A stretch of DNA of 64,000 nt from contig CAMDUE010000005.1 in the NCBI GenBank assembly GCA_945877575.1, forward strand, positions 1 through 64,000. The letters are read 5' to 3'. Under the pieces are notes generated by a model. It saw nothing but the letters and a program-made list of their open reading frames with translations, was not told the origin of the DNA and made no database searches. Of the stretch, positions 8,870 to 24,813 are shown in pieces. A program made the translations under genes and the position numbers. This DNA comes from Chitinophaga pinensis. GTDB taxonomy: Bacteria; Bacteroidota; Bacteroidia; NS11-12g; UBA955. The number at the start of each line of letters is the position of its first letter. The first letter of the stretch is position 1.

Positions 8870-9023
8870 ATTGGCAATTATTATAAATATTAGGAAATAT
8901 TTAATTGGTTGATTTTAGACTTATTAGAAAAGGATTGTTATTTTGTTATTCGAGAATGTCAATTTTAGGTTCAGATTAACACAAAAGTATCTCATTGGAA
9001 ATAATAGGGTCTTTTTAGGGATC

Positions 9024-9031
9024 TACTTTTG
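9024..9031 (+). promoter_or_regulatory. Putative -7 element TACTTTTG
   Basis: TACTTTTG matches TAnnTTTG and ends 4 bp before the ATG at 9036. This supports the shorter start of the phosphoesterase gene and implies a leaderless or near-leaderless mRNA. No convincing -33 TTTG is present at the usual spacing. Confidence 0.35.
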
Positions 9032-9035
9032 GTTG

Positions 9036-11807
9036 ATGAAATTCTTACCCAATTTAGCCAAATCGGTTCTGTTTTTTATTGCTTTGCATTTTTATTCAAG
9101 TCCAATAATTGCCCAACAAGACTTAGAAATTCCCGGACGGAATGAGTACTGCAAGGTCAATCCTTCGGGAAAATCAGTATTGCCTTCAGGTAGATGGGTT
9201 AGCCCTGTTGGCGAAGCTAAAACTATAACAAGAGCTCCATATGGTTTGGCAGTTTCGGCTGATGAGCGTTGGGCAGTAGTGGCCCACAGCAACGCCATTT
9301 CATTGGTGGATTTAAGTGGGAATTTAATGAATATTCAACGATTTCCTGAGTTTAATGGAAGCGGTGTAGATGTTATTAAAGGTGCATCATTTATCGGCTT
9401 GCAATTTCTTGAAGACAATAAGACAGCGGTTATTGGTGGCGGTGATAAAGGTATGATTTGGTTTTTTGATTGCGAAAAGAAAACAGTTATTGACTCAATT
9501 GATATTGGAAAGTTTCACCCCGTTCATCCCAAAGAAGCATTTTTGACAGATATAGTATATGATTCGAAAAGGAAAGAGCTTTGGGTTTTAGATAGGGGTT
9601 GGCAAGAACTTTATAGAATTGATGTCCAAACAAAAAAATTGTTAAAATCCTTTCAGACGGGTAGAATTCCTTTTGGATTAGCCCTCAGCGATGATCGAAA
9701 CAAAATATTGTTTTCTAATGTGGGTATTTACCAATACAAAAAGCTTCCGGAAATTACAAAAGATAATAAGGACACCTTTTTCTTACACTTTCCACCTTTT
9801 GGAGCTCATACTTCTGAGTCTGATACAGGAGTTTGGATCAATGGTAGGAAGGTCGCTGGGCTTGGACCTGCTGATAATGATGAGTCTATGTCTGTATGGA
9901 TTATTGATCTCTTACAAAATGAATTGGTACATAAGGTAAAAACGGGCTTGAGAATAGGTGAAATGTTAGAGGATGCCGAAATTGTAGGAGGTTCGCACCC
10001 GAATTCTATAGTGTGCAAAGGAAATTTCGCCTATATATCGCAAACACAAAATGATAATATAGCAATTATTGACATTTCAACGGGCAAAGTATCCGGCTAC
10101 ATCCCCATCAAAACCAATAGCGCTTTGGATAAGGTCAGAGGTTATTTTCCTTATGGCTTAGATATTGATCAATCGGGTAAGAAAATTTATGCGGCCTTGT
10201 TGGGTTACAATGCGGTCGCAGTAATTGATGTTAAGAAACGCACGGTTTTGGGTTTTATTCCCGGTGGTTGGGGCGTAACTCGTGTAAAGTGTTTAAATAA
10301 GAAAAGTGAAATATTGATGACTTCGGCAAGAGGTTATGGTGCAGGACCCAATGGGGGCTATGGTTTTAAGCCTCCGGTTCAAGGAACATATGTGGGTGAT
10401 ATTCAATTGGGGTTGATACAAAAGGTAGCTATCCCCAATCAAAAACTCCTGAATCAATGGAGTCAGACCTGTTTGAACAATACATTCAGTCCGATTAAGG
10501 CAAAAAAATTGGAGAATTTAGCTTCTATTAAACATGTGGTTTATATCACCAAGGAGAATAGAACTTTTGACGAGGTTTTGAGCCAAGTGCCAGGGGTTGA
10601 AGGTGACACATCCCTTGCTAGATTTGGAGTTGATTGTGAGGAAGTGATTAAAAAGGAAATTCGTGAGAAACTAACTCTGTTGAGTGATAATTCTTCTGAA
10701 TCTATCAACTGGGAACTGTTAAAGAAATATGGTTTGGATTCAATTACCTTAGACAATTTGATGAACGCTGAAAAAATCCGCATCACTCCAAACCATCAGA
10801 AATTAGCAAGAAACTTTGCTTTGTCGGATAATTTTTATTGTGATAGCGATGCATCCATTCACGGGCACCACTGGATGATGGGAACCATTCCCAATGAATA
10901 TGTAGAAACCAATTCAGCCAACAGCGGAGGTTATAGGATTTTTTCACCTGCACCGGGAAGGATTTTCCCTAGAACTACTGGGGCACAAGATCCTGAAGAT
11001 TACAATGAAGTTGGAGGTTTTTGGGAAGCATTGGAAAGAAAGAATGTATCAGTTTACAATTTTGGTGAAGCAAATGAATATACCGATGTTCAAGAAGAAT
11101 GGTATGACACAACCAATGGAACTGCTCTACCCGTTGCTTTTCCTATGCCTAAATCTATTTTCCCTAAAACTTCGAGAAAGTATGCTGGATATAATATGAA
11201 TATTCCGGATCAATTCAGGGTTGAACAATTTGAAGAAGAATTTACAGAGAAATGGTTGAGTGGCAAGGATTCGATGCCCCAAGTCATCACCATTCAATTG
11301 CCTAATGATCATACTACAGGCCCAAGGCCCGATGATGGATATCCATTTGTTCACTCATATGTTGCAGATAACGATTTGGCTTTGGGCAGAATGATTCATT
11401 TTTTGAGTCATACCCCCTATTGGAAAAATATGCTTATTGTAGTGACGGAAGATGATCCACAAGGTGGTGTAGATCACATTGATGCACATAGAAGTCTTTT
11501 GATGATGATCAGTCCTTTTGTGAAGCGTAATTATGTATCGAAGACACACGCAAATTTCGGTTCAATTTTAAAAACGATATATGGCATTTTTGAGATTCCT
11601 GCGGTTAATCAATTTGATTTGACTTCTACTTTGTTGGATGATTTTTTCACCAACGAGCCTGATTATCGTCCGTATGAATTGGAAAAAAGCGATTTACGAA
11701 TTTTTAATCCCGAGGCCGTAATGAAAAAGTACAACCGCACTATTCCTTGGAGGGAAGTTAATATGAGTGAGCCCATGGATAATGAAAGTTACATAAAAGG
11801 TAAATAA
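9036..11807 (+). CDS. YncE-type beta-propeller / alkaline-phosphatase-superfamily phosphoesterase fusion (1)
   Basis: The ATG at 9036 gives 923 residues beginning with a signal peptide (MKFLPNLAKSVLFFIALHF, cleavage near IIAQQ). A start 31 codons upstream is rejected because the signal peptide would be internal. The N-terminal half is a YVTN/YncE-like propeller with repeats such as NIAIIDISTGKVSGYIP and AVIDVKKRTVLGFIPGG. The C-terminal half is a phosphoesterase of the PF04185/alkaline phosphatase superfamily, with ENRTFDEVL, NDHTTGPRPDDGYP, VADNDLALG and EDDPQGGVDHIDAHRS supplying the metal and catalytic residues. An exported phosphate-ester hydrolase is expected. It heads an operon with its paralogue 1 bp downstream. 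Confidence 0.88.
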   Translation: MKFLPNLAKSVLFFIALHFYSSPIIAQQDLEIPGRNEYCKVNPSGKSVLPSGRWVSPVGEAKTITRAPYGLAVSADERWAVVAHSNAISLVDLSGNLMNIQRFPEFNGSGVDVIKGASFIGLQFLEDNKTAVIGGGDKGMIWFFDCEKKTVIDSIDIGKFHPVHPKEAFLTDIVYDSKRKELWVLDRGWQELYRIDVQTKKLLKSFQTGRIPFGLALSDDRNKILFSNVGIYQYKKLPEITKDNKDTFFLHFPPFGAHTSESDTGVWINGRKVAGLGPADNDESMSVWIIDLLQNELVHKVKTGLRIGEMLEDAEIVGGSHPNSIVCKGNFAYISQTQNDNIAIIDISTGKVSGYIPIKTNSALDKVRGYFPYGLDIDQSGKKIYAALLGYNAVAVIDVKKRTVLGFIPGGWGVTRVKCLNKKSEILMTSARGYGAGPNGGYGFKPPVQGTYVGDIQLGLIQKVAIPNQKLLNQWSQTCLNNTFSPIKAKKLENLASIKHVVYITKENRTFDEVLSQVPGVEGDTSLARFGVDCEEVIKKEIREKLTLLSDNSSESINWELLKKYGLDSITLDNLMNAEKIRITPNHQKLARNFALSDNFYCDSDASIHGHHWMMGTIPNEYVETNSANSGGYRIFSPAPGRIFPRTTGAQDPEDYNEVGGFWEALERKNVSVYNFGEANEYTDVQEEWYDTTNGTALPVAFPMPKSIFPKTSRKYAGYNMNIPDQFRVEQFEEEFTEKWLSGKDSMPQVITIQLPNDHTTGPRPDDGYPFVHSYVADNDLALGRMIHFLSHTPYWKNMLIVVTEDDPQGGVDHIDAHRSLLMMISPFVKRNYVSKTHANFGSILKTIYGIFEIPAVNQFDLTSTLLDDFFTNEPDYRPYELEKSDLRIFNPEAVMKKYNRTIPWREVNMSEPMDNESYIKGK

Positions 11808-11808
11808 T

Positions 11809-14253
11809 ATGAAATCACACAAGAATATTGCATTTTTTCTGATGTTGATGGCATTCGCACAGAGCATCACGTTGATAGGTCAGATAGAAACAACAAAAAT
11901 TGAAGCTACAGAACTCCCTAATGGATGGAAAATTTCTCCGGTAGGTAAGCAGATTAGAGTGGGAGATTTACCCATGAAAATGGTGAGCCACCCTTCGCAA
12001 AATTGGATTATTGTTCAGAATGCGGGTCAAAGTGATCACTCTTTGATGGTGGTAGATGTGAAGAAACGGAAAATATCCGATAGTATGCAGTTGAATAAGA
12101 CCTTCTATGGTATGTGTTTTAATCAGAAAGGAAATATTTTGTATGCAAGTGGTGGGAACAATAACTGGATTGAAATATTTGAGTTTAAGAAAGGTAAATT
12201 ATTGAGAAAAGACACCATACTTCTGGGGTTACCCTGGCCTAATCGTATTTCGCCAACAGATATGGTTTTGAGTGCAGATGAAAGCAAATTATTCGTAGTA
12301 ACAAAGGAAGATTCTTCGGTTTACTCTATTCAGCTTTCGAGCAAAAAGATCTTATCTAAAACAAAATTGAAATCTGCGAATTTCTCGCTGCTTTTATGTA
12401 AGAGAAATACTTCGCTGTCTCTGACTGAAGAAAATTCTGAAATTATTGTAAGCGAATGGGGTAATGAGGCACTTGTAATCATAGATCCCAAAGATTTAAA
12501 CATAAAATCTAGAATTTCTGTGGGTTCAAATCCTAATGAACTTGTTTGGGATCCGAAATCCGATAGGATTTTTGTTGCCTGCGCTAATGATAATTCAGTG
12601 CATGTTTTTGATAGGAAACAAAATAGAATAACTGAAATTCTAAATACTTCTTTCGAACGAGACGCTCCAACCGGCTCAACCCCCAATTCGGTTTGTTTAA
12701 ATTCAAATCGTTTGTACGTCGCAAATGCTGACAATAATAACGTGGTTGTTTTTGATGTTTCTGAAATTAACGAAACTAAAACCTTGGGCTTTATTCCAGC
12801 AGGTTGGTATCCAACACAAGCAATTTTTGCAAAAAATGAACTTTTTATAGCCAATGGTAAGGGCGTAAGTTCAATGGCTAATCCTCAGGGTCCCAATCCA
12901 ACAGCAAAAAGAAATCAGGTAACCTACCAAGGTGGAATCAAGTCAATGCCGGTTCAATACATTGGTTCGCTTTTTAGAGGTTCGTTGCAAATCATCGATA
13001 GGAAATGGATCACTGATTCTAGAAACTTAGATTGGGGTACGATGCAGTGTAAGTTGAACAGTCCGTACAACAAGCTAAAAGAGCGCGAAGATGTGAATAT
13101 TCCATTGAATAATCCGATTCCTTCAAGATTGGGAGACACGTCACCCGTAAAGTATGTATTTTATATAATCAAAGAAAATAGAACGTATGATCAGGTATTG
13201 AGCGATATCCCAAGGGGCGATGGAGATACGAGCCTTTTGTTATTTGGTGAAAATATTACACCTAATCAACACAAATTAGCTCAACAGTTCGTCTTGTTAG
13301 ATCATTTTTATGTTGATGCCGAGGTCAGTGCTGATGGTCACAACTGGAGTACAGCTGCCATTGCTAATGATTACACCGAAAAAACTTGGCCAACTAGTTA
13401 TGGCGGCAAAGGGGGCGAATACGTTTATGAAGGCCAATGGAAAATTGCACATCCCCACAAAGGGTTTATATGGGATCACGCAAAAAATGCGGGTATTTCT
13501 TACAGAACTTATGGGGAGTTTGCCGATGATTATAAAGCGAACATTAAATCTTTAGAGGGGCAATTTTGTCGTTATTTCACCTCATGGGATGAGTCAATAA
13601 AAGATAGTCTTAGATTTTTTCAATGGAAAAGGGATTTTGATTCGCTTTTAAATATTGGGAAGGTTCCTCAATTGAGTACACTCAGGTTTATTAATGACCA
13701 TACTGAAGGTGTTCGTAAAGACAGACCCACACCATTTGCACATGTGGCTGACAATGATTTAGCGGTTGGAATGTTTGTAGATTACTTGTCAAAGTCGCCC
13801 ATTTGGAACCAAAGTTGTGTTTTTATTTTGGAGGATGATGCTCAAAATGGACCTGATCACATTGATGCACATCGTTCAACGGCTTACCTCGCAGGTGGTT
13901 GGGTGAAGCGCGGTTTCGTTGATCATACGCACTATACCACTTCATCGATGTTGAGAACTATGGAGTTAATCTTAGCTATGCCTCCCATGAGCCAATACGA
14001 TGCAGGCGCTACATCTATGTGGAGGTGTTTTTCAGATACTTTGATTTCCGGGGAATTTGAATTCGAGAAACCAAGAATAGATTTGAACGAAAAGAATTCT
14101 GCAACCAATCCAAAGTCAACATCTTATTTGATGCAAAGAAGCGAACTACTTAATCTTTCAAAAGAAGATGAAGCCGATGAATTTATCATGAATGAGGTTC
14201 TTTGGAAGTACGTTAAAGGTGAGAATTCAGTTCTTCCTCCGATAAAGAGATAA
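11809..14253 (+). CDS. YncE-type beta-propeller / phosphoesterase fusion (2)
   Basis: An 814-residue paralogue of the preceding gene with the same order: signal peptide (about 1-25, ending LIGQ), beta-propeller with VIIDPKDLNIKSRISVG and VVVFDVSEINE repeats, then the phosphoesterase. Key motifs are ENRTYDQVL, FINDHTEGVRKDRPTPFAH, VADNDLAVG and EDDAQNGPDHIDAHRS. It lacks the roughly 40-residue insert found after GDTSL in copy 1. One base separates it from copy 1 and two from the TonB receptor, so the three genes form one transcript. The paralogues may differ in ester substrate. Confidence 0.88.
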   Translation: MKSHKNIAFFLMLMAFAQSITLIGQIETTKIEATELPNGWKISPVGKQIRVGDLPMKMVSHPSQNWIIVQNAGQSDHSLMVVDVKKRKISDSMQLNKTFYGMCFNQKGNILYASGGNNNWIEIFEFKKGKLLRKDTILLGLPWPNRISPTDMVLSADESKLFVVTKEDSSVYSIQLSSKKILSKTKLKSANFSLLLCKRNTSLSLTEENSEIIVSEWGNEALVIIDPKDLNIKSRISVGSNPNELVWDPKSDRIFVACANDNSVHVFDRKQNRITEILNTSFERDAPTGSTPNSVCLNSNRLYVANADNNNVVVFDVSEINETKTLGFIPAGWYPTQAIFAKNELFIANGKGVSSMANPQGPNPTAKRNQVTYQGGIKSMPVQYIGSLFRGSLQIIDRKWITDSRNLDWGTMQCKLNSPYNKLKEREDVNIPLNNPIPSRLGDTSPVKYVFYIIKENRTYDQVLSDIPRGDGDTSLLLFGENITPNQHKLAQQFVLLDHFYVDAEVSADGHNWSTAAIANDYTEKTWPTSYGGKGGEYVYEGQWKIAHPHKGFIWDHAKNAGISYRTYGEFADDYKANIKSLEGQFCRYFTSWDESIKDSLRFFQWKRDFDSLLNIGKVPQLSTLRFINDHTEGVRKDRPTPFAHVADNDLAVGMFVDYLSKSPIWNQSCVFILEDDAQNGPDHIDAHRSTAYLAGGWVKRGFVDHTHYTTSSMLRTMELILAMPPMSQYDAGATSMWRCFSDTLISGEFEFEKPRIDLNEKNSATNPKSTSYLMQRSELLNLSKEDEADEFIMNEVLWKYVKGENSVLPPIKR

Positions 14254-14255
14254 AA

Positions 14256-16316
14256 ATGAGTGTAAAAAATATTTTGGTTGTTGTTCTTTTCTTTTTGCTG
14301 AATTGCGGACAGGTTTTTGGGCAGGGGTTGAATAACCTCGTGCAATCAAATATTGATACGGTATTTGTGACTTACAGAAGCGGTGAGTCTGGTTTCAAAT
14401 CTTCTTACACGGTTCACAAATTGTCTAATCCCTTGCAGAATAATTTAAATAGAACCATTCCAGAATCACTGATGGAAGTTCCTGGTCTGCAAGTTCAACG
14501 AACCAATTATGGAGGTGGTAGCCCATACCTAAGGGGGATGACAGGAAATCAAATTTTAACAGTAGTGGATGGTATTCGTTTGAATAACAGTACTTTTCGT
14601 TATGGGCCAAACCAATATATCAATACTTTGGATGGATTGGCAATATCTTCATTAGATTTGGTATTGGGTACAGGGAGTGTTCAGTTTGGAAGTGATGCAA
14701 TGGGAGGTGCTTTATCTGTGAATTACAGGTCTGCAAATTATTCCAAAGAAAAAAAATTAGCTCTTAGTAAAGTTGGGGGTAGTACTCGTGTTTCAGCTCC
14801 AACTGGTGAGTTTTCACAAAGAATTTTTGTAGATTTTAGCACTGATAAAATAGCGTTAACTACGGGCATTACTTTTCGAAAATTTGGTGATGTGGTAGTT
14901 CCTGGTTCTGATGCAAACAAGTCTGTTAAATTAAGTCCAACGGGCTACTCAGAAGTTGACGGTGATTTTAATTTGAGGTTAAAAGCCCGAAACGGAGAAT
15001 GGACTTTTGCCGGAAATACGGTGAATCAGAGAAATATTCCTGTTTACCATAAAATTGCCTTAGAGAATTTTGAAAAGAACGCTATGGATAGACAGGATCG
15101 TCATCTTTTGTATCTGAGGAGGACTTTCAATGTAAATAGAGCAACGCAACTCAAGTTCACAGCGGGTTTGCAGAACAGTTATGAATCGCGCTCTATGCAA
15201 AAACGCAATTCCGATAAATTAACTCAAGAAACTGATGTTGTTCAAACGCAGTTTTTTTTGACAGAATTAAACCAACAATTATCAAGGAACTGGAGTTTGA
15301 GCAGCGGTTATGAATTTTATCGCGACAAAGTGCTTTCCTCTCGATACAATACAAATACCTTAACTGGAAATACACTAAGTAGCCGCGGGTTATATCCAGA
15401 TCATTCAGGGCTTTTTCAACACAGCGTATTTTTGATGTCAAAGGGTGTATACTCTAGATTTGAGTTTACGGGGGGCTTAAGGTTACAGCAAACGAGTTCT
15501 GAGATGAATATTGAGCCTATCGGAGAAATTTTGGATAGAAATTTGGCTCTTGTTCAAACGTTGGGACTGTCAATTGATCTTTCAGAATTAAACCCTATTA
15601 AAGGTGGAGAATTAAGGGTTTTCTCTAATTATTCAAGTGGTTTCAGAGCACCAAATTTAGATGATTTGGGTACATTGGGAATAGTTGATTTTCGCTATGA
15701 AGTGCCTCAGTATGATTTGCGTCCTGAATATTCTAAAAACCATGAGATTGGTTTTAAGTTTCGATCAAAGGGAGTTCGAGCTCAAATTTCTGCTTATCAG
15801 AACTATCTATTTGATGTCATATCAAGAACTAAATCAGGAAATGACTCTATTCAAGGGTATCCTGTATATCAAAAGGAAAATATTGAAAGAGCATTATTCA
15901 ACGGTTTAGAGATGATGTTTGAGTTTTCCTTGAGAAAGAACTTTAATATTAAGGGTGGTTTAGCCTACACTTATGGAGATAATTTATCTAAAGGAGAGCC
16001 AATGCGAAGAGTACCTCCTTTGAATGGAATGTTACAAATGAATTACTTGTTTGGTAAGAACCGAAATCAATCAATTTTTTGTCGATACACTGCGTCGAAA
16101 TCCCAAACCCGTCTTGCGTCTGGTGATATTTCTGATAACAGAATTGGTCGAAATGGTACTGCTGGATTTGTGCAATTTGACCTTGGTTATCAAATTTTAT
16201 TAAACGATTACCGTATTGCGGTGTGTATGCAAAATTTGAGTAACGAATATGTTAAAATTCATGGAAGTGGTGTTCCGATGGCTGGGAGGAATTTGGCATT
16301 GTTATTAAGTTTTTAA
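14256..16316 (+). CDS. TonB-dependent outer-membrane receptor
   Basis: A 686-residue receptor with a signal peptide (about 1-23), a plug domain including IPESLMEVPGLQVQRTNYGG, RGMTGNQILTVVDGIRLNN and GSVQFGSDAMGGALSVNYRS, and a beta-barrel ending in LALLLSF with a C-terminal Phe. It carries no carboxypeptidase-like N-terminal extension, so it is not SusC-like. As third gene of the phosphoesterase operon it probably imports a phosphorus compound or product, or a metal cofactor the phosphoesterases need. Substrate not readable from sequence. Confidence 0.92.
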   Translation: MSVKNILVVVLFFLLNCGQVFGQGLNNLVQSNIDTVFVTYRSGESGFKSSYTVHKLSNPLQNNLNRTIPESLMEVPGLQVQRTNYGGGSPYLRGMTGNQILTVVDGIRLNNSTFRYGPNQYINTLDGLAISSLDLVLGTGSVQFGSDAMGGALSVNYRSANYSKEKKLALSKVGGSTRVSAPTGEFSQRIFVDFSTDKIALTTGITFRKFGDVVVPGSDANKSVKLSPTGYSEVDGDFNLRLKARNGEWTFAGNTVNQRNIPVYHKIALENFEKNAMDRQDRHLLYLRRTFNVNRATQLKFTAGLQNSYESRSMQKRNSDKLTQETDVVQTQFFLTELNQQLSRNWSLSSGYEFYRDKVLSSRYNTNTLTGNTLSSRGLYPDHSGLFQHSVFLMSKGVYSRFEFTGGLRLQQTSSEMNIEPIGEILDRNLALVQTLGLSIDLSELNPIKGGELRVFSNYSSGFRAPNLDDLGTLGIVDFRYEVPQYDLRPEYSKNHEIGFKFRSKGVRAQISAYQNYLFDVISRTKSGNDSIQGYPVYQKENIERALFNGLEMMFEFSLRKNFNIKGGLAYTYGDNLSKGEPMRRVPPLNGMLQMNYLFGKNRNQSIFCRYTASKSQTRLASGDISDNRIGRNGTAGFVQFDLGYQILLNDYRIAVCMQNLSNEYVKIHGSGVPMAGRNLALLLSF

Positions 16317-16490: not shown

Positions 16491-19400
16491 ATGAAATCTT
16501 TCACAATTTACAAAGCAAATCGATTGATTGCTGCAGTGGCATTAGTTTTAATGGCTAATCCACTATCTGCTCAACAAGCGGAAAGCGACACTGACACCAC
16601 GAACGTGGGGGAGGTTGTAGTTACCGCGTTGGGTATTAAAAAGGAAAAAAAGAAACTAGGTTTTGCCGTTTCTGAAATCCAAGGTGCCTCTTTAGTTAAA
16701 GCTCGAGAAACCAATGTTGTTGACAACATGGTGGGTAAAGTTGCTGGTTTGACTATTGGTCAAAGTGCAGAGCTTTTAGGTACTTCTCAGATTGTTCTTC
16801 GTGGTAGTGATATCAGAAGAGGTCAATCTGTGCTTTTTGTGGTTGATGGTGTTCCTATTAACTCAGATGCTTACAATTTATCACCTGATGATATTGAAAA
16901 GGTATCTGTATTGATGGGGCCTGCTGCTGCTGCTTTATATGGATATCGCGGACAAAACGGTGCGATTGTAATCACTACAAAAAGAGGTAGTAAAGATGGA
17001 ATCACTGTAGAGGTTAATTCTTCAGCTATTATGGAGAATGGGTTTTTAACTATCCCAAAAGTTCAAGATAAATATGGACCTGGTGATCACGGTAACTACT
17101 CATTTGTAGATGGTTTGGGTGGTGGAAACAATGATGGTGACTACGACGTTTGGGGACCAGCTTTAAATGGTCAATTGATAGCTCAATACGATAGTCCTGT
17201 TGACCCTGTTACTGGACAACGTATACCTACTCCATTTGTAGCCCGTGGTGCAAATAATTTGCAACGTTTCTTGCAAGCAGGTTTATTGAATACCAATAAT
17301 TTCAGTATAGCTTCATCAACTAAAATGATGGATGTGAGATTCTCCTTTAGTAATTTAAATCAAAGAGGAATTGTACCAAACACAGGTTTGAATAGCAACA
17401 CCTTTAACATTTCAAACACGATTCGTTTTTCTGATAAATTCAGAATGAATGCAACTGTAAACTACAACCGTCAATCAACTGAGAATATCAATGATGTGGT
17501 TTATGGTCCTAACTCATTAATATACAGCGTGATTATTTGGCAGGGTGCTGATTGGGATGTAATGGCTGATGACATTCGCGGCATTTGGCAGCCTGGTAAA
17601 GAAGGTGTTCAATCTATTCACTCAGAATATAAAAGATATCAAAATCCTTGGTTCGTTGCTTACAAGTGGTTGCGTGGCCATTATAAAAATGATCTATATG
17701 GATATACCAGTTTTGATTGGGATATCAACAAGAACGCCAATTTAATGGTTAGAACTTCTGTAACTACTTATGATGTTTTAAGAACTGAAAAAATGCCCTT
17801 TAGTGCTCATCCATACGGACGTGAAGAAAATAGAGGTGATTACCGTGAAGACCGTCGCGCATTGTTTGAGATAAATAATGATTTCTTATTCAATTATGAA
17901 AAAAAGGTTCGCGGTATAGATGTACATGCTTCATTGGGAGGAAATCGTCGTGATTTCAATTACAACAGTAGTTGGGCAACTACAGATTATTTAAACGTGC
18001 CAGAGGTATACAACTTTGCAAACAGTGCTAATCCCGTGCGAGTTTTCAACTTTAATTCTTCAATGGCTGTAAATTCATTATATGCATTGGCAGATTTTGG
18101 ATCGAAATATTTGTTCGTCAATTTAGGGGCACGTATGGACCAACTTTCAACCATGCCTGCTGATAATAATACGTTTGTGTATCCTTCAGCCTCTGTATCT
18201 TTCTTGCCTACGGAGTTGTTTGGAAAATTGAAATCTAAAACGGTTAGCTTTTGGAAGCTGCGCGCTTCTTTTGCACAAGTTAAAGGTGGTTTAACTTCTC
18301 CTACAATCTCTCAAGCGGGCAGTACACTTGGGTACGGTTCAAACTATTCATCACCCTACGATGGACCAGCATACGTAAATGCAGGTATCTACAATACCCC
18401 TTTGCTTTACAACGGTAAACCTTCAGCAAACTTTACGAATGTACTGCCGAATGCGAGCCTTGCTCCATTTCAAAGAACTGATTTTGAGTTTGGTACTGAG
18501 TTGAGATTGTTTAACAATCGCTTAGGTGTAGAGGGAACGTATTATGTTTATAATGACGGTCCTGGAATCTTCTCTAGAACAATTTCTGAAGCTACAGGAT
18601 ATACCAATCAAGTGGTAAATGGAATTGAAACTCAGCGCAGAGGTTGGGAAGTAAGTTTCAAAGGTGATATCATCAAATCTAAAAGAGAAGGTGATTTAAC
18701 TTGGAATTCTATGTTGAACCTTTCTCGTTATAGAGAATTTTTAACTGCTGTATACGGTGATGTTGATCAGATTTCTGCAAACTATTTTGTTTCTGATAAT
18801 TCAAGTAACAGATTTTTGAAAGTAGGAGATAGAATTGATGCGCTTTACACAAATGGTTTTGCTAGAAATCAAGAAGGTCAGTTGATCAACGATGCAGGTG
18901 GAAGACCTATTGTGTTGCCAAAAGGACAGTTCCAAGGTTATACATTGCCTGATTTGGTGATTGGTTTCTACAACCAAGTAAAATACAAGAATTTTACTGT
19001 TGGCGTTCAGTTTGATGGTAGAATTGGTGGTTTAATTGTAAATCAAATTCAAAGACAAACTTTCCGCGGTGGCCGTCACATTGAAACAGTTCAAGACAAT
19101 TATACCGATGCTAATGGAAATTCTATGGCAAATGCGAGAGAAGCAGATACCCGTGGAGAGAAAACATGGTTGGGTGAAGGTGTTCAAGTAGCTTCAGGTT
19201 CAATAAAATACGATCCAATAACAGGTGAAATTACGAACTATGAAGAATTGGCATTCAAGAGCAATGAGACTCAAACTTATTTGCAAGATTATATCAGTCG
19301 TTATTACGGTCAATACGAAGCAAATATTATGAAAAAGGATTACTTGAAACTTCGTGAGGTAACCATCACTTATAATATTCCTTCAGCAATGATGGGCAAA

Positions 19401-19565
19401 ACGTTTAAGGCAGCTTCTATTTCAATCGTAGGTAGAAACCTGATCTATTTTGCAAATGGTTTGCATGACTTGGATTTGGATCAGTTCCCAGGAATGACTG
19501 GCTATTCTGCACTTCAGTCACCAACAATGAGAAGATACGGTATCAATTTGAATTTGACATTCTAA
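16491..19565 (+). CDS. SusC/RagA-family TonB-linked outer-membrane protein
   Basis: A 1024-residue SusC-type transporter. The signal peptide ends near PLSAQQ, then VGEVVVTALGIKKEKKK, the hallmark SusC junction, leads into the plug (LRGSDIRRGQSVLFVVDG, GYRGQNGAIVITTKRG) and barrel, ending NLNLTF. The usual N-terminal carboxypeptidase-regulatory-like domain is absent: only about 15 residues lie between signal peptide and plug. It pairs with SusD 18 bp downstream. The 174 bp upstream are very AT-rich and should hold its promoter, but I see no clean TAnnTTTG. Downstream phosphonate genes suggest an organophosphorus or glycan-linked substrate; SusCD-like systems responsive to phosphate have been reported in Flavobacterium. 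Confidence 0.95.
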   Translation: MKSFTIYKANRLIAAVALVLMANPLSAQQAESDTDTTNVGEVVVTALGIKKEKKKLGFAVSEIQGASLVKARETNVVDNMVGKVAGLTIGQSAELLGTSQIVLRGSDIRRGQSVLFVVDGVPINSDAYNLSPDDIEKVSVLMGPAAAALYGYRGQNGAIVITTKRGSKDGITVEVNSSAIMENGFLTIPKVQDKYGPGDHGNYSFVDGLGGGNNDGDYDVWGPALNGQLIAQYDSPVDPVTGQRIPTPFVARGANNLQRFLQAGLLNTNNFSIASSTKMMDVRFSFSNLNQRGIVPNTGLNSNTFNISNTIRFSDKFRMNATVNYNRQSTENINDVVYGPNSLIYSVIIWQGADWDVMADDIRGIWQPGKEGVQSIHSEYKRYQNPWFVAYKWLRGHYKNDLYGYTSFDWDINKNANLMVRTSVTTYDVLRTEKMPFSAHPYGREENRGDYREDRRALFEINNDFLFNYEKKVRGIDVHASLGGNRRDFNYNSSWATTDYLNVPEVYNFANSANPVRVFNFNSSMAVNSLYALADFGSKYLFVNLGARMDQLSTMPADNNTFVYPSASVSFLPTELFGKLKSKTVSFWKLRASFAQVKGGLTSPTISQAGSTLGYGSNYSSPYDGPAYVNAGIYNTPLLYNGKPSANFTNVLPNASLAPFQRTDFEFGTELRLFNNRLGVEGTYYVYNDGPGIFSRTISEATGYTNQVVNGIETQRRGWEVSFKGDIIKSKREGDLTWNSMLNLSRYREFLTAVYGDVDQISANYFVSDNSSNRFLKVGDRIDALYTNGFARNQEGQLINDAGGRPIVLPKGQFQGYTLPDLVIGFYNQVKYKNFTVGVQFDGRIGGLIVNQIQRQTFRGGRHIETVQDNYTDANGNSMANAREADTRGEKTWLGEGVQVASGSIKYDPITGEITNYEELAFKSNETQTYLQDYISRYYGQYEANIMKKDYLKLREVTITYNIPSAMMGKTFKAASISIVGRNLIYFANGLHDLDLDQFPGMTGYSALQSPTMRRYGINLNLTF

Positions 19566-19583: not shown

Positions 19584-21170
19584 ATGAAAAAGATAATTTT
19601 CGCAATATGTACTGTTTTCGCTTTGGTAGTGATGAACAGTTGTTCAGTGGAAGGTTTGGATAATGATCCGAATCGTCCTACTCAAGTTACTCCTGACTTG
19701 GTGTTGAACGGTATTTGTTTTTCAATAAATCAGAGACCTTGGGGTGGAGATGCTCGAATTTGCCAGTATAATTTGTGCAATTATAACTACTACGGCAATA
19801 ATGAATACAATTGGGGTGGTGCTTCATGGTCATATACTACCTTGAAAAACGTAATCAAAATGGAAGAGGAAGCAAAGCGTGTGGGTAATCCTGATGTGAA
19901 TCCTTATTCTGCTTTAGGTAAGTTTTTCAGAGCTTATTTATTTTACCAAATGACTATGTTGACCGGTGATGTTCCAATGTCTGAAGCATTACAGGTTTCT
20001 AACTTCATGCCCAAGTACGATTCTCAAAAGGAAGTATTTAAGCAGGTATTGGTTTGGTTAGACGAAGCTAATTCTGATATGACTACTTTGATAAATTCTG
20101 GAAACTCTACGTTTTCAGGTGACATTTATTACAGCAACAACCTTGCTTCTTGGCAGAAAATGAACAACGCTTTTACATTGAGAGTATTGATGGCATTAAG
20201 CAATAAAGAAGCAGATGCTGACTTAAACGTAAAAGGTCGTTTTTCATCAATTGTTACTAATCCATCGAAATATCCATTATTTAATTCTAATGGTGATGAC
20301 ATGCAGTTTATTTACAATAGCACATTGAATAAATATCCTGTAAGTCCAGATAACTATGGTTTTGACGCATTGCGTTACAATATGTCTTCTACAAACCTTT
20401 CCATCTTAACTTACTTGAAAGATCCTCGTGTATTCTTGATTGCTGAGCCAGCAGGTGCTCAATTAAAAGCTGGAAATGGGTATACAGATTTCAATTCTTT
20501 TGTTGGAGCTGATGCCAATCAAGATTTAGCAGACATGTCAACTAAAATGCAGGTTTCAAATGGAGGCGATTTTTTGAATGGAGAATATTCACTATACAAT
20601 CGTTACCGTTGGTATCGCTCTTTTACTGCGGAACCATGTATTCAGGTAGGATATTCAGAGATGTGTTTTAACATTGCTGAAGCTGCTCACAGAGGTTGGA
20701 TTTCTGAGAGTGCATCTGATTGGTATGAAAAAGGAATCAAGGCAAGTATGCAGTTCTATGGAATTAGCAACGGACCCGTTGATGTATATGCCTTCAGAAA
20801 TGGTGGCTCACCTACTGATGCCGGCGACTACATAAAGAATGTATACAATTTTGATGAAGCTGCTTATTTTAATCAGATTACTGTAAAATACGCTGGTGCT
20901 AACAATAATGGGTTACGTCAAATTGTTTCTCAAAAGTACTTAGCGTTCTTCCAGAATAGCGGTTTGGAGGGGTATTTTAACTATCGTAGAACTGGCCTTC
21001 CAGCATTCTCAGATAATGGCCCTGGAACAGGTAATAGCGGAAAATTACCAAAGCGTTTCCAGTATCCCTCAAGCGAAAGAACCAACAATGCTTCGAGTTG
21101 GAAAGCAGCGGTTGATTCACAGTTTGGTGGATCAGACGATATTAACGCTGAAATGTGGTTATTGAAGTAA
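19584..21170 (+). CDS. SusD/RagB-family nutrient-binding lipoprotein
   Basis: A 528-residue surface lipoprotein: lipobox VVMNSC (Cys19), then EGLDNDPNRPTQVTPDLVL, typical of the SusD-like_2 branch. The TPR-like helices and ending DDINAEMWLLK agree with SusD length (about 500-550). It forms the lid of the SusC transporter encoded 18 bp upstream. A strong rho-independent terminator follows 17 bp after the stop, so SusCD form their own transcript separate from the HD gene downstream. Confidence 0.93.
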   Translation: MKKIIFAICTVFALVVMNSCSVEGLDNDPNRPTQVTPDLVLNGICFSINQRPWGGDARICQYNLCNYNYYGNNEYNWGGASWSYTTLKNVIKMEEEAKRVGNPDVNPYSALGKFFRAYLFYQMTMLTGDVPMSEALQVSNFMPKYDSQKEVFKQVLVWLDEANSDMTTLINSGNSTFSGDIYYSNNLASWQKMNNAFTLRVLMALSNKEADADLNVKGRFSSIVTNPSKYPLFNSNGDDMQFIYNSTLNKYPVSPDNYGFDALRYNMSSTNLSILTYLKDPRVFLIAEPAGAQLKAGNGYTDFNSFVGADANQDLADMSTKMQVSNGGDFLNGEYSLYNRYRWYRSFTAEPCIQVGYSEMCFNIAEAAHRGWISESASDWYEKGIKASMQFYGISNGPVDVYAFRNGGSPTDAGDYIKNVYNFDEAAYFNQITVKYAGANNNGLRQIVSQKYLAFFQNSGLEGYFNYRRTGLPAFSDNGPGTGNSGKLPKRFQYPSSERTNNASSWKAAVDSQFGGSDDINAEMWLLK

Positions 21171-21187: not shown

Positions 21188-21219
21188 AAAGGGAGGGGTT
21201 TTTATTCCTCCCTTTTTTT
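21188..21219 (+). terminator. Rho-independent terminator after susCD
   Basis: A 9-bp stem AAAGGGAGG/CCTCCCTTT with a 10-base loop, followed by a run of T. It lies 17 bp after the SusD stop and ends 8 bp before the HD gene ATG. Confidence 0.85.
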
Positions 21220-21227
21220 ATTTTTAT

Positions 21228-21770
21228 ATGCAACCAATTGAAGTTATTGATCAAATACAGAAGATTTTCTTGGAAAAGGGGAATCTAAACTACGGTGAAA
21301 ATATCACTCAAATAGAACATGCCGTTCAATGCTGGACCTTGGCATTAGAGTCGGGTTATGATGTTGAGTTAAGAGTAGCAGCCTTTTTGCACGATATTGG
21401 TCACTTGTATTACGATGAAAGTGAATCAAAATCCGATATGCGCCATGAAATATTGGCGGCTGAAGTACTGTCTAAATGGGGCTTTTCTGAGCGGATGGTT
21501 CAGATTGTAGAGTCACACGTTTGGGCAAAACGGTGGTTAGTGACTCATGTTGAATCATATTATAATAACCTATCAGAAGCGAGTAAGTTGAGTCTTGTTA
21601 AGCAGGGTGGATTCTTATCTGAAGAAGAAATAGAACATTATAAGCACTATCCATTTTTTGAAGATAGTCTGCAACTTCGTAGGTGGGATGATGAGGGTAA
21701 GAGAGAAGATATTTCCCAAGATATTCCTCAAGAGGTTTGGTTGGATATAGCCAAATGTTTGAGTTTATAA
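21228..21770 (+). CDS. PhnZ-like HD-domain oxygenase (phosphonate degradation)
   Basis: The ATG at 21228 gives 180 residues; an earlier ATG-less extension would cross the terminator. Candidate di-iron ligands H31, H55-D56 (FLHDIGH), H73, H97 and D154 keep nearly the spacing I recall for PhnZ (H34, H58-D59, H80, H104, D161): intervals of 24, 18 versus 22, 24 and 57. E24 aligns with the PhnZ active-site Glu27. PhnZ oxidatively cleaves (R)-1-hydroxy-2-aminoethylphosphonate to glycine and phosphate. No PhnY dioxygenase is nearby. It converges on, and overlaps by 6 bp, the FAD oxidase gene of the phosphonate operon. It belongs to the phosphonate-associated HDIG family. Confidence 0.75.
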   Translation: MQPIEVIDQIQKIFLEKGNLNYGENITQIEHAVQCWTLALESGYDVELRVAAFLHDIGHLYYDESESKSDMRHEILAAEVLSKWGFSERMVQIVESHVWAKRWLVTHVESYYNNLSEASKLSLVKQGGFLSEEEIEHYKHYPFFEDSLQLRRWDDEGKREDISQDIPQEVWLDIAKCLSL

Positions 21771-22883
21771 TTTCGAAACATATTCTTCGGCCATTCCCCA
21801 ACTCAGAGTCATACCTGCTCCCCCAGGGCCGTTGGCAATGTATGTTGTTGAATCAATTTGTTCAAACCATTCACTCTTTCCATTGGTCATTTTTAAATAT
21901 TGACCTGTCCATCTTTGTGCAATACCCAAGTACTCTAGATTGAGTAATTTATTCATGTAATCTAAGATAAACTGATCAACGCTGCTCATTTGGAATGGGT
22001 CATGATGATTTCCGTAATCGTGCGAATCTCCAATGGTTAGCTCACCGAGTGGCGATTGGGAAATAAGAAGGTGAATGCCGTGTTTGATTTGATTTGGAAA
22101 TTCAGAATTACAATAAGTTTCGTATTCGTTTAAGGTCTTACAGACCGAGTAAGATGGATAATGCAAAAAGCTTAATCCACCGCAAATAGAAGGAATTAAA
22201 TCACTAATAGGATAACTTCTCAACATGTTCAAGCTTGAAATGGTTACGGGAGCTTGATTAAATATTTCGGGAAAAAGCAGTTGAGTTTCGTAGCCACTCG
22301 CTAAAATGGTTAAGTCGGCTGAATGTTTTTTCCCAAGATGCGTGGTAACTGAGCCTTCCTCAACCGATTTAATCAAGGTGTTAAAATGAAATTTAACGCC
22401 CATTGTTTTTTCGAGGTATTCGGGTATTTCCCGAATGGCCGAACGCGCTTCAACGATCATTTCAGTGGGACTGAAAAGGGCACCTCTTACCGTTTGCTTA
22501 TTGATAAACGGGACCAATGATTCAACCTGTCTCCAAGTGAGAAAATCTAAGCCTGGTCTAGCGTATTTTTCCTCGTCGTAAAATTCTTGGCCAAGGCTTA
22601 TTTCTATAGGATTTGTTAACAATTGAAGTGAACCGCTTTCCTTGTACCAAATTTTTGCATCATCGCAAACTTCCTTCCAAATTTCTCTGGTTCTAAGAGC
22701 TCTTTGAAGAGTTTGGTCTTTGTGTTGTCCTATGGGCCATATCATTCCAAAGTTTCGGATGGATGAGCCACTGGCTTTGGGGGTTCTTTCAAAAACACTG
22801 ACGGAATAACCTTTTTTTGCAAATGCTCTTGCAAATGCAAGCCCAAGAATTCCAGCGCCAATAATATTTACGGATTTATTCAT
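21765..22883 (-). CDS. FAD-dependent amine oxidase, phosphonate-associated (HpnW-like)
   Basis: A 372-residue DAO-family flavoenzyme with the dinucleotide fold NIIGAGILGLAFARAFAKKG at residues 5-24 and a C-terminal NGPGGAGMTLSWGMAEEYVS segment. Relatives typically encoded next to PhnX-like HAD hydrolases are proposed to deaminate an aminophosphonate, possibly 1-hydroxy-2-aminoethylphosphonate, giving an aldehyde for the HAD enzyme. It is the last gene of the leftward operon HAD, transporter, oxidase and overlaps the transporter gene by 8 bp. Glycine oxidase-like activity on another amine is the alternative. Confidence 0.75.
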   Translation of the reverse strand: MNKSVNIIGAGILGLAFARAFAKKGYSVSVFERTPKASGSSIRNFGMIWPIGQHKDQTLQRALRTREIWKEVCDDAKIWYKESGSLQLLTNPIEISLGQEFYDEEKYARPGLDFLTWRQVESLVPFINKQTVRGALFSPTEMIVEARSAIREIPEYLEKTMGVKFHFNTLIKSVEEGSVTTHLGKKHSADLTILASGYETQLLFPEIFNQAPVTISSLNMLRSYPISDLIPSICGGLSFLHYPSYSVCKTLNEYETYCNSEFPNQIKHGIHLLISQSPLGELTIGDSHDYGNHHDPFQMSSVDQFILDYMNKLLNLEYLGIAQRWTGQYLKMTNGKSEWFEQIDSTTYIANGPGGAGMTLSWGMAEEYVSKL

Positions 22884-24129
22884 TGGATTTTAAAGTAAAT
22901 TTAGTGGGGTAAAAACCTTTTATGATTGGGTAAATAGAGATGAAAAATATGGCAGTTGAACCAACGGCTATTAGGGTTTCATACACGTTGAACCATTTAA
23001 CTGCATCTTTTGTCCCAAAAAGAGCCAAACACAATATTGCAATTGAGGTGAGATAGCCTGATGCATCTGCTGAATACATGAGAAAGCCGCAATTTCCGGG
23101 GTTCTTTCTGTATGCAACAATACGATTCATGATACTGATATTGATTAAAATATATCCGCCATACAGTCCAAAGCCAGTAATGAGAATGAAAATGCTTCCA
23201 GAGATGAAATTAGATTGAAATAAATACAGTCCTATTAAATTTATAATACTGCCAATGAGCGCAACAAAGAAGGTGAGTTGTATTGCGGCAAAGTGATTTC
23301 TAATTAGTGAAATAAGTGGGATGACGGCAATTAGAATTACAGATATAATCGTTTCGTACTGCGCGATTATTTGTCCGCTTAAATTATGATCTTCATGAAG
23401 CATTTCAGCGGTAAAATTGTCTCTAAAGTCTCTCATTAAAGTGAGAAGAGCATAAATGGCTATGGCGGGGATCAGGAAAAATTTATTTTGTTTGAAGAAG
23501 GAATTTTGCTCGTGTTTTGATAAGGGCAATCTGCGTGCGTTATGCACTATTTCTTCCTCAGTGGGTGGAGGGGTTTTGTTGAGTAGGTATGAAAAAAAAG
23601 CTGCGCAAAAACATGCCAATCCGGAGACTGTGGCACTTGCAAACACTGGAGAAACCAAAAAGTTTTCTTGTATGGTTATGGCTAAAAATTTGACGAATCC
23701 CGAAGAGAAAACGAAAGTACAAGCGAGGATAGCACCCATGAATTCGGTGAGGTCTCTTCCTTCGAGATAACTAAAAACAATTCCCCAAACAATTCCCAAA
23801 GGAAAGCCATTTAAAAGCATCAAAATGGGCCAAAATTGAATGGGGGTTATAGTCATCAACCATAATGGAAGTGAAGCTGCACATAGCAGTAATATTAGAT
23901 GTTGCCTTCGCTTATGGCGTTCTAATTTACCAATGAAACGAATGCCAAAGAATTTGCTTAATGTGTACCCCAGCAATTGAGCAATTACCAACCAATTTTT
24001 GATGTTGTAACCTAATAAAGTTTGATCATAGATGAATCCGGCAAACGGTTTGCGTATGGCATACATGCATGAATACGTCGCGAAGGCGACAAAACCTAAA
24101 ATGATAGCGGGAATGAGTTTTTTACCCAA
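22876..24129 (-). CDS. MFS-fold transporter, DUF5690-like
   Basis: A 417-residue membrane protein with about twelve helices, starting with a helix containing GFVAFATYSCMYAIRKPFAG. This resembles the first-helix signature of organophosphate:phosphate antiporters (GlpT/UhpT), and the overall look fits the Bacteroidota DUF5690 family. It lies between HAD and FAD genes with a 12-bp gap upstream and an 8-bp overlap downstream, so uptake of a phosphonate or organophosphate across the inner membrane is the likely job. The substrate is inferred from context. Confidence 0.75.
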   Translation of the reverse strand: MGKKLIPAIILGFVAFATYSCMYAIRKPFAGFIYDQTLLGYNIKNWLVIAQLLGYTLSKFFGIRFIGKLERHKRRQHLILLLCAASLPLWLMTITPIQFWPILMLLNGFPLGIVWGIVFSYLEGRDLTEFMGAILACTFVFSSGFVKFLAITIQENFLVSPVFASATVSGLACFCAAFFSYLLNKTPPPTEEEIVHNARRLPLSKHEQNSFFKQNKFFLIPAIAIYALLTLMRDFRDNFTAEMLHEDHNLSGQIIAQYETIISVILIAVIPLISLIRNHFAAIQLTFFVALIGSIINLIGLYLFQSNFISGSIFILITGFGLYGGYILINISIMNRIVAYRKNPGNCGFLMYSADASGYLTSIAILCLALFGTKDAVKWFNVYETLIAVGSTAIFFISIYPIIKGFYPTKFTLKSNE

Positions 24130-24141
24130 AAGGTGGGAGTA

Positions 24142-24813
24142 TTATTTAAAATACGAAAGCACAGGTTCTAGGTTTGCAATGATCTGGGTGTAAGGCGCCA
24201 CTCTCAATTCTTCATAATTTTGAGCTCCTGTTAACACCCCAATGTTGTAGGCACAGCCAGCTGAAAATCCTTCGTATAAATCGCTGACCGTATCACCAAT
24301 TTTCATGACTTGATGTGAATAGCTAACTTTTGAAAGTTCCATAGCTTTGTGAATCATGTGGGGGTGAGGTCTTCCCATTTCTACCTCGTCAGAGGCAATG
24401 TAACCGTCAATCAATGTGCCAAGGTCAAGTGTATTTACAATTACGGTTGCGATGCTTTTTTCAAAACCGGTATTTAGATAAATTTTGGTGTTTTTTCTGC
24501 GCATAGCCAAAAACAATTCCTGAGTGTAGGGCATTAAGGAGATGTTGTTTTTGTCAGAGTATAATGCCTTTAGTTCATTGTTGAAATAAGTAACCAACTT
24601 TGTGATGACTTCATTGTCAGATGGAGCACCAGATATAGAGCATAGAGTTTGAAAGGCCGTTCCCTTTGGTATGCCCATGACTTTGTCTGCATCGGCTTTG
24701 GTTATTGAAATGTTCGATATATTCAACATGGCGTTGATGGCCGCTTGTTGAACCAGCCCACCATCGTTGATCGTGGTTCCGGCCATGTCTAATACTGCTA
24801 GTTTGGGTTGCAT
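24142..24813 (-). CDS. PhnX-like phosphonatase (HAD superfamily)
   Basis: The ATG at 24813 gives 223 residues (a TTG two codons earlier is less likely). HAD motif I is DMAGTT (D9), with the alanine characteristic of phosphonatases. A cap-domain lysine, K50 in VMGIPK, lies 41 residues after D9, the same spacing as Asp12 to Lys53 in PhnX, and should form the Schiff base. Motif III uses arginine (GRPHP) and motif IV is KIGDTVSDL, both features of the PhnX-like clade. It should split phosphonoacetaldehyde or its hydroxy form. It heads the operon with transporter and oxidase and has no PhnW transaminase beside it. Confidence 0.85.
   Translation of the reverse strand: MQPKLAVLDMAGTTINDGGLVQQAAINAMLNISNISITKADADKVMGIPKGTAFQTLCSISGAPSDNEVITKLVTYFNNELKALYSDKNNISLMPYTQELFLAMRRKNTKIYLNTGFEKSIATVIVNTLDLGTLIDGYIASDEVEMGRPHPHMIHKAMELSKVSYSHQVMKIGDTVSDLYEGFSAGCAYNIGVLTGAQNYEELRVAPYTQIIANLEPVLSYFK

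Follow-up and report, generated by a model that had tools for sequence, protein, structure and literature searches.

Which substrates reach two different carbon-phosphorus-cleaving enzymes that are encoded tail to tail at one locus? The first-pass annotation had proposed that both converge on 1-hydroxy-2-aminoethylphosphonate. The pair lies in the window, by which we mean the whole 64,000-nucleotide stretch of DNA analysed, and comes from a 2.5-Mb genome that is 99.9% complete (Table 1). The plus strand carries two phosphoesterase genes, a TonB receptor, SusC-SusD, and then the HD gene, and the minus strand carries an operon (24813-21765) in which HAD and DUF5690 are separated by a 12-base gap and DUF5690 and the FAD oxidase overlap by 8 bases. 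The HD and FAD genes share 6 bp at their 3' ends, and the coordinates thus uphold the earlier description of opposite strands with overlapping 3' ends. The hairpin in the SusD-HD gap is followed by a T run and ends about 13 bases upstream of the HD start codon. The family-f1 relatives that were folded have comparable hairpins with T runs in this gap despite their differing sequences, a pattern that suggests HD is controlled by attenuation or read-through. Because so strong a terminator-like hairpin directly precedes HD, its co-expression is uncertain.

Table 1. Features of the aminophosphonate locus, with positions in the window.
Feature	Position	Strand	Support
Phosphoesterase-domain protein 1 (PF04185), probably secreted	8943..11807	+	Pfam 43 bits vs 23
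Beta-propeller/phosphoesterase-domain protein 2 (PF04185), probably secreted	11809..14253	+	Pfam 38 bits vs 23
TonB-dependent receptor	14256..16316	+	PF00593/PF07715
SusC-like outer-membrane transporter	16491..19565	+	TIGR04056 352 bits, slightly under cut-off 368
SusD-like lipoprotein	19584..21170	+	PF12771, PF12741
Intrinsic-terminator-like hairpin, SusD-HD gap	21188..21215	+	-17 kcal/mol, z -4.0
HD-domain mixed-valent diiron oxygenase, PhnZ/TmpB-like, gate YxE (Y22, E24)	21228..21770	+	
FAD-dependent aminophosphonate oxidase, TIGR03364/PbfD type	21765..22883	-	361 bits vs cut-off 285
DUF5690 major-facilitator protein, likely inner-membrane aminophosphonate importer	22876..24129	-	PF18943 330 bits
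PhnX-like HAD phosphonatase, nucleophile D9, Schiff-base K50	24142..24813	-	TIGR03351 best match, PhnX alignment

The absence of phnW and phnY noted at the outset extends to the whole genome, where a profile search did not find PhnW (best match 28 bits vs 401) and gave no match for a PhyH-family PhnY, so the HD protein has no paired PhnY*/TmpA hydroxylase. PbfA was not found in the genome either (best 185 vs 525), which fits a report that PbfA and PhnZ exclude each other within clusters (PMC8154272). A role in phosphonate biosynthesis was ruled out because PepM is absent from the genome.

The arrangement is conserved. Within the window's family, the order phosphoesterases, TonB receptor, SusC, SusD, and HD, convergent with FAD, DUF5690, and HAD, recurs in many genomes; HD and FAD converge at the same spot in the members that have both, and the TonB receptor usually holds the same position in relatives. 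Both PF04185 phosphoesterases are conserved along with the locus, the first of them in family f1 and also in genus g16 of family f2. In some genomes of the window's family the HAD gene lies a few kilobases away or on a separate contig, and in two genomes from another family of the order all locus genes are on one strand. Chance placement of HD was ruled out, as the pairing recurs in many relatives. In many of these (L119, L117, L109, L095, and L097) a gene for a HisJ-like PHP-domain phosphatase, absent from the window's locus, adjoins DUF5690, often in the order DUF5690-PHP-HAD.

In a set of 80 FAD loci taken from named genomes, a sample that does not include the assayed PbfD2 of Mariniblastus fucicola, the fetched stretch held DUF5690 in 72, HAD in 63, and HD in 59. 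The orientation of HD varied: it was convergent in 12 of the loci, divergent in 19, and co-directional in 28. It is therefore the association, not the convergent overlap, that is essential. A survey of 345 genomes of the class found HAD in 29 of 30 FAD genomes (odds ratio 885) and gave odds ratios of 59 for HD with HAD and 77 for HD with PhnW, values that overstate independence because the genomes are related. HD thus accompanies PhnW clusters as strongly as FAD clusters, and PhnW is present in six of the ten genomes that have HAD but lack FAD. The HAD/FAD/HD trio is found repeatedly in Bacteroidota and also in Prochlorococcus (L198, L204-L207), where HAD-FAD is convergent with HD with a 3' overlap of 4-12 bases and adjoins PhnS2-T2-U2 genes for a putative 2-aminoethylphosphonate (AEP) ABC transporter. 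The portions of the Prochlorococcus phosphonate literature considered here describe PhnYZ, not this cluster.

The FAD oxidase exceeds the curated cut-off of TIGR03364. Enzymes of this family were assayed as PbfD by Zangelmi et al., and the available text of that study (PMC10590968) reports that they convert N-methyl-AEP and AEP to phosphonoacetaldehyde and proposes them as a replacement for PhnW. PbfD prefers N-methyl-AEP, PbfD2 oxidises AEP with similar efficiency, and activity is given in that text only for M1AEP, N-ethyl-AEP, AEP, and M2AEP. An old TIGR03364 annotation note that proposed a 1-hydroxy-AEP route is quoted there and then superseded (PMC10590968). By analogy with these enzymes, the oxidase in the window would yield phosphonoacetaldehyde from AEP and N-methyl-AEP.

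The HAD protein has D9 in DMAGTT, K50 in MGIPK exactly 41 residues later, and a GRP arginine motif from residue 147, so that the Schiff-base lysine and arginine motif III attributed to it earlier hold to the residue. It aligns to Bacillus cereus PhnX (1RQL; E 5e-15). TIGR03351 is the best profile match, and although the score falls below the curated cut-off (168 vs 218.9 bits), as do those of most relatives' HADs in conserved cassettes, the DxAGT nucleophile, cap lysine, and GRP arginine expected of a TIGR03351-type protein are all present. PhnX-like TIGR03351 genes cluster with PhnW in L095, L210, L211, and L212; three of these loci (L095, L211, and L212) carry an HAD-HD-PHP-DUF5690-PhnW operon without FAD, and HAD adjoins PhnW in a fourth related genome. 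The product of PhnW is phosphonoacetaldehyde. Since these otherwise matching cassettes have PhnW where the window has the FAD enzyme, the HAD substrate is almost certainly phosphonoacetaldehyde rather than a hydroxylated analogue, and HAD and DUF5690 would therefore belong to AEP catabolism. A further cluster, SusCD-HD-PhnA-PhnY-PhnW with DUF5690 nearby (L215), indicates together with these operons that HD and DUF5690 accompany whichever route leads from AEP to phosphonoacetaldehyde. Some relatives (L105, L109, L111-L113, and L115) have a second, degenerate HAD near DUF5690 that has lost catalytic motifs, including the cap lysine, and is possibly a pseudoenzyme.

All six iron ligands of the HD protein (H31, H55, D56, H73, H97, and D154) are present and invariant in the alignment, in agreement with the PhnZ ligand pattern ascribed to it by the first-pass annotation. 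Its best profile match is TIGR03276 (Phn-HD), at 184 bits below the curated cut-off of 214.6; a literature search for Phn-HD together with PhnY/PhnZ gave no match. The protein is closer in sequence to PhnZ (E 3e-30, 109 bits) than to TmpB (E 2e-21, 80 bits), and its AlphaFold2 model (pLDDT 93) matches PhnZ (4N6W) and TmpB (6NPA) with Z 25.9 at 1.9 A, far above the next fold. E24, which aligns with the amine-contacting glutamate of PhnZ, is retained. The YxxE gating loop described for PhnZ/TmpB HD oxygenases (PMC8177086) is one residue shorter here, YGE (YxE), as in all f1 relatives aligned, and the HD substrate may for that reason differ from that of PhnZ. A shortened YxE gate also occurs outside the window's family, in an HD protein of Chitinophaga oryziterrae (L144:17853-18437). 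In the HD tree the f1 clade branches deeply, and members from PhnW clusters are nested among those from FAD clusters, with three changes of partner. TmpB has the Prochlorococcus protein as its closest neighbour there, and the substrates of HD enzymes therefore probably differ from one locus to another.

Searching solved structures by sequence gave no match for DUF5690, and its structure was therefore predicted. The model has a major-facilitator fold whose nearest solved structures are SLC37 sugar-phosphate carriers, with SLC37A4 ranked first (Z 32.8), although other MFS carriers score almost as high (30-31); an R26-K27 pair is invariant. DUF5690 may thus be an MFS importer of the organophosphate type; no paper in the literature searched mentions it. 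SusCD with phosphoesterases and phosphonate genes is known from phosphate utilisation systems (PusCD; PMC8115612), and the two phosphoesterases are presumably secreted and free aminophosphonates from lipids or glycans.

We therefore favour, with a probability of about two in three, the reading that the locus scavenges phosphate from external aminophosphonates, with an FAD and HAD route for AEP and N-methyl-AEP and an HD side branch for (R)-1-hydroxy-2-aminoethylphosphonate (R-HAEP) or its N-methyl form. The phosphoesterases and the TonB/SusCD receptors would probably release and import the head groups, and DUF5690 would carry aminophosphonates over the inner membrane. In the cytoplasm, the FAD oxidase would replace PhnW and turn AEP and its N-methyl form into phosphonoacetaldehyde, as shown for other family members, and the HAD would use a K50 Schiff base to yield acetaldehyde and phosphate, as its residues and the PhnW swap suggest. 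HD would oxidatively cleave R-HAEP, or the N-methylated form, to glycine, or N-methylglycine, and phosphate, filling the role of PbfA in phnWX clusters; PhnY would not be needed because the hydroxylated compound is natural and imported. Zangelmi et al. (2021) reported that PhnZ homologues in phnWX/phnWAY clusters never occur with PbfA, and these have been read as a separate outlet for R-HAEP, which PhnW-PhnX handles poorly (PMC8154272). The simplest reading of HD is likewise that it disposes separately of R-HAEP, or of a methylated form, taken up from outside.

The earlier proposal has both branches acting on 1-hydroxy-AEP: the FAD enzyme deaminates it, HAD cuts the hydroxy-aldehyde to glycolaldehyde and phosphate, and HD cleaves it oxidatively. 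A genome without phnW and phnY agrees with this, as does the old TIGR03364 note quoted in PMC10590968. However, the PbfD enzymes tested, in the available text of that paper, make phosphonoacetaldehyde from AEP and N-methyl-AEP, PhnW substitutes for the FAD enzyme in otherwise matching cassettes, and HD is an equally strong companion of PhnW-only clusters, all of which makes this proposal very improbable. What survives of it is the pairing of two different chemistries and an HD that most likely uses an imported hydroxylated substrate; the assignment of FAD and HAD to 1-hydroxy-AEP is not supported. The PbfD product, the PhnW swap, and the poor use of R-HAEP by PhnW-PhnX make the branches look complementary rather than directed at the same substrate.

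Other readings concern HD itself. A locus specialised for N-methyl aminophosphonates, in which HD cleaves a hydroxylated mono-, di-, or trimethyl compound and not plain HAEP, would accord with the PbfD preference for N-methyl-AEP given in the available text of PMC10590968, with TmpB equalling PhnZ in fold closeness, with the grouping of the Prochlorococcus HD with TmpB, and with the deep f1 branch and its altered gate; we consider it unlikely, since HD in the window is closer to PhnZ by sequence and retains E24. It is also rather unlikely, and offered tentatively, that the f1-family HD, with its shortened gate loop and deep separate branch, cleaves a hydroxylated aminophosphonate preferred by neither PhnZ nor TmpB and that the whole phosphoesterase-SusCD-DUF5690 locus is dedicated to stripping lipids or glycans of their aminophosphonate head groups. 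HD could instead detoxify R-HAEP that arrives through the AEP importer, given that growth is inhibited by HAEP on uptake (PMC8154272) and that HD is found with all AEP routes; we think it quite improbable that this is not a nutritional branch, as phosphate is also released, although sequence cannot separate nutrition from detoxification.

With two complementary branches as the preferred reading, the locus probably puts known enzyme families together in a new way and combines two separate routes of known type. The PbfD-PhnX pathway of Mariniblastus fucicola, as presented in the available text of PMC10590968, also joins a TIGR03364-type FAD oxidase to a phosphonatase in a genome without PhnW; the window has a TIGR03351-type HAD, together with a PhnZ-like HD, DUF5690, and SusCD. 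HD shares its diiron oxygenase fold and iron ligands with the PhnY*-PhnZ and TmpA-TmpB pathways, from which it differs in lacking a hydroxylase partner and in having YxE in place of YxxE. Like phnWX/phnWAY clusters with phnZ or pbfA (PMC8154272), the locus pairs a hydrolytic AEP route with a separate R-HAEP outlet, but has an FAD oxidase where those have PhnW. The SusCD with phosphoesterases and phosphonate genes resembles PusCD of Bacteroidetes (PMC8115612), a paper that covers Flavobacterium loci. New in detail are the possible likeness of DUF5690 to organophosphate-type importers, TIGR03351 beside PhnW, and a YxE gate one residue short.

These results give a concrete, testable role to DUF5690, a transporter family without a name, and to TIGR03351, a PhnX-like family, and they correct a TIGR03364 annotation note that names the wrong substrate. 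They also suggest that an aminophosphonate route that dispenses with PhnW and has a PhnZ-like side branch is widespread among Bacteroidota and extends to Prochlorococcus, a spread that bears on who recycles organic phosphorus.
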